Shown here in pieces: positions 3,658 through 4,643 of a DNA stretch of 33,063 bases (position 1 is the stretch's first letter; every line of letters starts with the position of its first letter). The notes beneath the pieces were generated by a model. It saw only the letters and a list, made by a program, of their open reading frames with translations. It searched no databases and was not told the DNA's origin. Origin of the DNA: Elusimicrobiota bacterium (GTDB lineage Bacteria > Elusimicrobiota > Elusimicrobia > UBA1565 > JACRDR01); contig JACQPK010000488.1 of assembly GCA_016207565.1 (NCBI GenBank), forward strand, positions 1 to 33,063, in the 5' to 3' direction. The position numbers and the translations under genes are program-made.

Positions 3658-4521
3658 TTATTCTAACAGCTTCCCGGCGGTCCCGCTAGGGAATTCCCCG
3701 ACCAGGAAGGCACGGAGCGCCTCCGCGCACGCGTGCGGAGCGTCGAGGATCACGTGGTGAAAGGCCCTCGGGACCTCGAGGCTCGCCGCGCTCGGGAGCG
3801 CTCGGAGGAACCGGTCGAACTGCGCCCGAGGCATGGTCGTCGAGCGTTCGCCGCGCAAGACGAAGACGGGAGCCGCCAGCCGCTCGAGCAGGGGCCAAAT
3901 CTCCCGGTAGCGCAGCGTGAAGGCCCGCCAATCGAAGCGCCAGGTCCACTTCCCGTCCTCGCGGCGGCGGATGCAGCGGCGCCCGAACTCGCGGACTTGG
4001 TCGACGGAGAGCAGCGTGCCCGGCGGCTGGAACCGGAACCGTTCCAGGATCACGTCTACGGACTCGAAGACCGGCGGCATGCGGGTGCGGAAACGCGCGA
4101 AGCGGTCGAGCTGCCCCGGCAGGACCTCGCACAGGAAATCGAGAACGGCGAGGCGCTCGAGGCCGGTCGGCCGGCGCGCGGCGTACTCCAAGGCGACGCG
4201 CGCCCCGAACGAGTGCGCGGCGATCGCCAGCCGCTCGAGCCCGAGCGCCCCCCGGGCGGCGGCGATGTCCTCGGCGAAGGCCTCGATCTCGTAGGCGGCG
4301 ACGTCTTCGGTCCAGCCGCTCTCCCCATGGCCCCGGAGGTCGAGGGCGATCGGCCTCAGCCCGGGAAGCCGAGGCGCGACCCCGTCCCACCAGTGCGTGT
4401 TGCCGCTCATCCCGTGGATCAGCAGCACGGGAAGGCCCTCCCCTCCCCAGTCCCGGCACGACAGCCGGCAGGCGGGTCCATCGAAGGTGATCGTCTGGGG
4501 GGCCGCCCGGCTTACCGGCAT
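3658..4521 (-). CDS. Alpha/beta-fold hydrolase
   Basis: A 287-residue alpha/beta hydrolase. Visible are the oxyanion segment LLIHGMSGNTHWW (about 40-52), DLRGHGESGW, the nucleophile elbow AHSFG (Ser near residue 103) and a C-terminal histidine in FHHVILDAPH. The acid residue usually found after strand 6 is not obvious (RGERSTTMP). The substrate is unknown; esters, epoxides or lactones are typical for the family. The ATG at 4521 is preferred over an upstream in-frame codon at 4551 because the latter lies inside the promoter: TATAGT ends 9 nt before 4521. The terminator of the preceding RNA runs directly into this -10. Confidence 0.85.
   Translation of the reverse strand: MPVSRAAPQTITFDGPACRLSCRDWGGEGLPVLLIHGMSGNTHWWDGVAPRLPGLRPIALDLRGHGESGWTEDVAAYEIEAFAEDIAAARGALGLERLAIAAHSFGARVALEYAARRPTGLERLAVLDFLCEVLPGQLDRFARFRTRMPPVFESVDVILERFRFQPPGTLLSVDQVREFGRRCIRRREDGKWTWRFDWRAFTLRYREIWPLLERLAAPVFVLRGERSTTMPRAQFDRFLRALPSAASLEVPRAFHHVILDAPHACAEALRAFLVGEFPSGTAGKLLE
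3660..3668 (-). promoter_or_regulatory. orn promoter TGTTAGAAT inside the hydrolase 3' end
   Basis: On the complement, TG-T-TAGAAT is a good extended -10 ending 8 nt before the orn ATG. The same bases encode the final Leu-Glu of the hydrolase and the first base of its TAA stop, including a TTA codon that is rare in so GC-rich a genome. The codon choice looks constrained by the promoter. Confidence 0.6.
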
Positions 4522-4530
4522 CGGAAATCC

Positions 4531-4536
4531 ACTATA
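4531..4536 (-). promoter_or_regulatory. Hydrolase -10 element TATAGT
   Basis: TATAGT on the complement ends 9 nt before the hydrolase ATG at 4521. It starts at the end of the upstream terminator U-tract (TTTTGTGTTT). No -35 is visible, because that position falls in the terminator hairpin. Transcription could also arrive by read-through from the strong promoter at 4614-4643. Confidence 0.45.
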
Positions 4537-4607
4537 AAACACAAAACCCACCTCGCGGTGGGTCTGGTCTGTCTATTTCTCGTCGACAGTTCGAAAACGT
4601 CGGCGTT
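4537..4607 (-). ncRNA. Candidate ~70-nt small RNA (or short attenuated leader)
   Basis: A near-consensus promoter (4614-4643) predicts a start near 4607, and an intrinsic terminator (4537-4563) ends the transcript about 70 nt later. The predicted RNA has a 5' hairpin at 4584-4602 (CGACGTT, TTCG loop, AACTGTCG with one bulged base), a purine-rich single-stranded linker, and the terminator hairpin. The only ATG-led frame would start inside the -10, so no peptide is expected. No known RNA family is recognisable. Alternatively it is the 5' leader of the hydrolase gene, with termination as a control point, but I see no complementary antiterminator segment. Confidence 0.5.
4546..4563 (-). terminator. 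Intrinsic terminator of the candidate small RNA
   Basis: On the complement, ACCCACC-GCGA-GGTGGGT forms a 7-bp perfect stem with a 4-nt loop and is followed by TTTGTGTTTT (4537-4545). On the plus strand no T-tract follows, so it acts in the minus direction. It would also stop transcripts coming from the 4650-5904 genes. Confidence 0.75.
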
Positions 4608-4613
4608 AACGAC

Positions 4614-4643
4614 ATTCTAGCATGAACGTTGCGCGCGTGTCAA
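4614..4643 (-). promoter_or_regulatory. Strong sigma70-type promoter: TTGACA-18-TAGAAT with TGC
   Basis: On the complement, a perfect TTGACA (4643-4638) is followed 18 nt later by TAGAAT (4619-4614), preceded by TGC, so it is also an extended -10. This is the closest match to a full housekeeping consensus I found in the window, and no coding region follows at leaderless distance. It begins right after the stop codon of the gene at 4650. Confidence 0.7.

Follow-up and report, generated by a model that had tools for sequence, protein, structure and literature searches.

The Qrr and PrrF RNAs are encoded in multiple copies and act in trans as Hfq-dependent antisense regulators, and RNAs of the CsrB/RsmY type titrate a protein. 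In E. coli, 3′ETS-leuZ is a sponge RNA that is derived from a tRNA precursor and acts on RyhB and RybB in a host that has Hfq, according to the account in PMC8383071 (citing Lalaouna 2015).

Like 3′ETS-leuZ as described in that account, the RNA that we analysed in a 33,063-nucleotide stretch of Elusimicrobiota DNA (hereafter the window) and in related genomes belongs to a family of short RNAs, some members of which lie 3′ of a tRNA and would be freed from its precursor; it differs in having promoter-driven paralogues, Hfq-free hosts and no visible sequence relation. With Qrr and PrrF the Elusimicrobia RNA shares the presence of several near-identical copies per genome under different promoters, although those RNAs act as Hfq-dependent antisense regulators whereas Hfq was detected in none of the 56 genomes of the order. 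With CsrB/RsmY-type RNAs it has in common a folded structure with a conserved loop to which a protein might bind, but it lacks repeated GGA loops, and CsrA was found in only one of the 56 genomes; the control genomes were positive in both searches. The family thus fits neither the definition of an Hfq-dependent base-pairing sRNA, with Hfq in its host, nor that of a CsrA/RsmA-titrating RNA, which combines GGA loops with CsrA in the host. No Rfam 15 family reached its gathering threshold anywhere in the window; sroH and rnk_pseudo, whose cut-offs of 80 and 55 bits are far above the 19.6–19.8 bits obtained, were rejected and share only a generic terminator hairpin with the Elusimicrobia RNA. An Elusimicrobiota-specific RNA family or small RNA was found neither in Rfam nor in the literature searched. 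The family is uncatalogued in these sources; small structured bacterial RNAs are already known as a kind, and what is new here is the link to the initiator tRNA, the promoter-driven paralogues and the Hfq-free host.

The features of the window copy are listed in the Table. Its promoter, with an 18-nt spacer that ends in the TGC, scores 11/12 and is the sole site scoring at least 10/12 within the 33 kb window; a promoter scan returned three sites in the first half of the window, where 0.5 would be expected, and none in the second. The original prediction described this promoter as the strongest in the window, and it is indeed the only near-perfect sigma70 promoter there; all the elements then described, from the promoter with its spacer and extended −10 to the hairpin and its tail, were found exactly at the places indicated. 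The −10 box ends 16 nt from the conserved element, the commonest distance among the promoter-bearing copies of the family being 10 nt. The covariance model matches positions 4597–4536 over all 61 model positions with a score of 72.7 bits. The terminator stem reads ACCCACC(GCGA)GGTGGGT (4563–4546, minus strand) and is followed by the tail TTTGTGTTTT, ending at 4536. Folding of a 74-nt stretch gave z = −2.9 relative to shuffled sequences, with 2 of 200 shuffles folding equally well. The window copy has several of the attributes of an independent bacterial sRNA gene, namely its own promoter, as judged by the match of its sequence to the consensus, an intrinsic terminator and a conserved structure with compensatory changes. 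The statement that no translatable frame starts inside the RNA needs a small correction, as a GTG at 4551, within the terminator, shares the reading frame of the downstream hydrolase gene. A small open reading frame (AUG UCA GGA) was rejected as a conserved feature: its AUG reads AUA in 30 of the 106 distinct copies and the linker lengths differ.

Table. Features of the window copy of the Elusimicrobia RNA and its neighbour gene
Feature	Position	Strand	Remarks
−35 box TTGACA	4638..4643	−	Perfect match
Extended −10, TGC TAGAAT	4614..4622	−	TGC 4622–4620, TAGAAT 4619–4614
Predicted RNA, ~72 nt	4536..4607	−	Start site inferred from the −10
Conserved 5′ segment UUUUCGAA	4590..4597	−	C, G, A, A in at least 101/106 copies
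Helix P2 CUGUC:GACAG	4569..4589	−	Both-side changes in 4/5 pairs
Conserved 11-nt loop of P2, GACGAGAAAUA	4584–4574	−	
Linker ACCAG	4564..4568	−	A, C, C in 99–103/106 copies
Helix P3, terminator hairpin with GNRA loop	4546..4563	−	98% of cells paired, both-side changes in 5 pairs
Terminator tail UUUGUGUUUU	4536..4545	−	Family form UUYGUGUUU, nine columns, near-invariant except Y
Alpha/beta hydrolase gene, neighbour outside the RNA	3658..4521	−	PF00561, E 2.4e-20

Analysis of covariation in the 106 distinct copies, with shuffles and slid helices as controls, showed that 96% of the cells are paired and that 205 cells are changed on both sides, compared with 64 in the shuffles; the slid helices all scored far lower than the true ones. 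P2 (columns 9–13 with 31–35) is paired in 91% of cells and P3 in 98%, and nine pairs in the two helices together have both-side changes, so that the covariance-model comparison suggested with the original prediction recovered two helices with compensatory changes across relatives. In the window copy, P2 is CUGUC:GACAG versus CCUGA:UCAGG or CCCGN:NCGGG in the family, four of the five pairs having changed together. This covariation contradicts the 5′ hairpin with a UUCG-type loop that had been predicted; it is not a conserved structure and was rejected, although single-sequence minimum-free-energy folding of the whole transcript favours it by ~1 kcal/mol. A GAC:GUC pairing inside the loop was also discarded, being broken wherever position 14 is A (51/106 copies). 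Three stretches are near-invariant in the family: the loop (RACNAGWAAUR), the ACC that follows P2 and the tail (UUYGUGUUU). Within the loop, positions 17 and 20 vary among the 106 copies and the neighbouring positions are fixed. The CGAA of the 5′ segment can pair with UUUG in the tail in 96.9% of cells, with zero both-side changes. Two unproven pairings vie for this tail: a CGAA:UUYG helix would close a three-way junction, and an ACC:GUGU alternative could extend the terminator. The data are compatible with both, with compensatory support for neither.

A 201-nt query gave short (60–70 nt), strong matches in relatives that were restricted to the RNA portion and had the common core TTCGAACCTGAGACGAGAAATGTCAGGACC..CACCCACCGAAAGGTGGGTTTTGTGTTT. 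The covariance model detected the element in 45 of the 56 genomes of the order, at 1–6 copies each, and it is also present in further families of the class Elusimicrobia (phylum Elusimicrobiota); a second model, used with strict filters that lose weak matches, recovered it from 67 of the 341 genomes of the phylum, each of them in the same class. There are ~110 family copies in total (111 in the count of promoters and contexts). No convincing match was obtained in 11 genomes of the order, even with laxer filters, and several of its genera are without the element, which indicates that the RNA is not universally needed. Among 51 sequence-pattern matches, 41 were labelled Elusimicrobia/Elusimicrobiota or unnamed bacteria, and just one of the other 10, on a Bacteroidetes-labelled contig, fits the covariance model. 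This is a good copy of the element (L080:275–339, WAS_Bin_9), likely the result of misbinning or transfer. The element was not found in viral contigs (pattern search) or in phage and plasmid records (BLAST). Across the ~110 copies, sequence, covariation and conserved promoters all support the prediction of a new small RNA that has a strong promoter to itself, and the copies almost certainly constitute a real, conserved, structured RNA family.

In 42 of the 111 cases (~40%), the element sits 3′ of the tRNA that begins every protein, the initiator tRNA-fMet, or of its 3′ half; the window copy does not, and a search of the incomplete genome from which the window comes returned no tRNA-fMet. The spacer ATTTAGACG of the tRNA-linked copies is semi-conserved, and G044, a closed genome, has its copies within ~85 kb of tRNA-fMet. 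At some copies the integration of islands into the tRNA has left only its 3′ half. tRNA-fMet is an integration hotspot in these Elusimicrobiota (L185, L188, L190–L192, L201, L075); the island ends have a palindrome, TTTCTCGWCGAGAAA, beside the tRNA 3′ half, and the islands bring their own trailer and terminator, the sRNA being pushed up to ~31 kb from the tRNA in G044. An upstream promoter scoring at least 9/12 is present in 32 of the 69 non-tRNA-linked copies, as against 1.6% of random background positions, and in none of the 42 tRNA-linked ones. Several g10 genomes contain a third context with a different conserved upstream box. This box (~GTCAAYCTTTGTTAKCC..GCGTGACGCGTCCGWCATGG; upstream of L107:4488, L109:2229, L116:6025, L119:3056, L163:1067, L114:3125) replaces the normal −35 upstream of one sRNA paralogue and is probably a regulator site.

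The hydrolase gene starts, as predicted, 25 nt from the terminator stem, with an ATG at 4521, and the RNA had alternatively been proposed to be an attenuated leader of this gene. A cis-acting leader or attenuator, in which the promoter, an aptamer-like hairpin and a leaky terminator govern the next gene, would account for the same-strand genes that begin 0–35 nt after many non-tRNA-linked copies (ABC-F, PPIase, DEAD helicase, aspartate-kinase-like protein, hydrolase). About two-thirds of these copies have a same-strand next gene, often no more than 35 nt away, so some of them may double as leaders via read-through. For the family as a whole, however, this explanation is unlikely. The hydrolase is an ordinary alpha/beta hydrolase, and nine orthologues fetched with their flanks from other genomes have no element nearby, several of those genomes having it at another place; the RNA is therefore not tied to the hydrolase gene. 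By approximate gene calls with a home-made codon model, the next gene is on the same strand for 68 of 102 copies and on the opposite strand for 34, which, together with the orthologues, argues against the hydrolase leader. The recurrence of the same gene or pathway downstream on the same strand, which marks a cis leader or riboswitch, was not observed: the functions of the downstream genes are unrelated, the ABC-F arrangement is common to few genera only, and no antiterminator backed by compensatory changes emerged. ABC-F ATPase genes begin 0–29 nt past the sRNA terminator in L073, L106, L117, L121, L149 and L154 (genera g7 and g10), an arrangement in which read-through is possible. A conserved 50-aa Cys-containing protein (MKMHLFEF..KCLCGW) is encoded 12–14 nt after an sRNA copy in L103, L060 and L102; a Pfam scan of the L103 version gave no match.

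The best explanation, which we regard as moderately likely (a grading that averages over the confidence in its components), is a structured RNA that acts in trans and is recognised by way of its conserved loop. The family would consist of small structured non-coding RNAs of ~70–80 nt in the class Elusimicrobia, whose ancestral gene likely lay just 3′ of the initiator tRNA-fMet, with the RNA released from that transcript; the duplicated copies, including that in the window, would have their own sigma70-type promoters and their own terminator. The RNA is presumably expressed and probably acts in trans as a stand-alone molecule. Recognition would proceed via the hairpin-1 loop RACNAGWAAUR and the adjoining ACC, and would more likely involve a protein or a structured RNA partner than a simple antisense seed, since two loop positions vary among fixed neighbours and there is no Hfq and almost no CsrA. 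That a protein or some other shaped partner reads the loop is a tentative proposal, about as likely as not to be correct. Direct support exists for the conservation, the two helices, the conservation of the loop, the promoter class, the copy number and the independence from the neighbour gene; no target or protein partner turned up for the RNA, which counts against the best explanation.

The main rival is a base-pairing sRNA or sponge comparable to 3′ETS-leuZ, whose loop or 5′ UUUCGAACC segment would pair either with mRNAs or with other sRNAs. The tRNA-linked origin, the terminator, the conserved unpaired segments and the paralogues under different promoters are all consistent with it, but it appears rather improbable given the lack of Hfq, the variable loop positions 17 and 20 and a low-power seed-target search of local loci, covering 555 kb of DNA from relatives, in which complements of the RNA were in no clear excess. 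The linkage of 42 of 111 copies to the tRNA or its 3′ end and the semi-conserved spacer would also be expected of a mere 3′ trailer and terminator that aids tRNA-fMet processing, the remaining copies being fossils; this is quite unlikely, as the full sequence is kept in stand-alone copies, many with strong promoters, and a tRNA followed by an island uses a different trailer and terminator. A DNA site for mobile elements that integrate into tRNA-fMet would agree with the hotspot and with the overlap in sequence between the island-end TTTCTCGWCGAGAAA and the loop; it is highly improbable, because compensatory changes and promoters indicate an RNA, the element stays with the host DNA at the break and it was not found in the phage, plasmid and viral collections.

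A more far-reaching version of the trans-acting structured RNA, which we consider speculative and on balance doubtful, is a phylum-specific regulatory RNA that is made together with the initiator tRNA and has been multiplied into paralogues with promoters of their own; its fixed 11-nt loop would bind either a protein peculiar to the lineage or the translation machinery, in a post-transcriptional system free of Hfq and CsrA. The covariance model and the coordinates make the family testable in existing metatranscriptomes. A poorly studied phylum appears to own a conserved regulatory RNA, and a multi-copy conserved RNA tied to the initiator tRNA, with no Hfq or CsrA, would give a handle on post-transcriptional regulation in such phyla.
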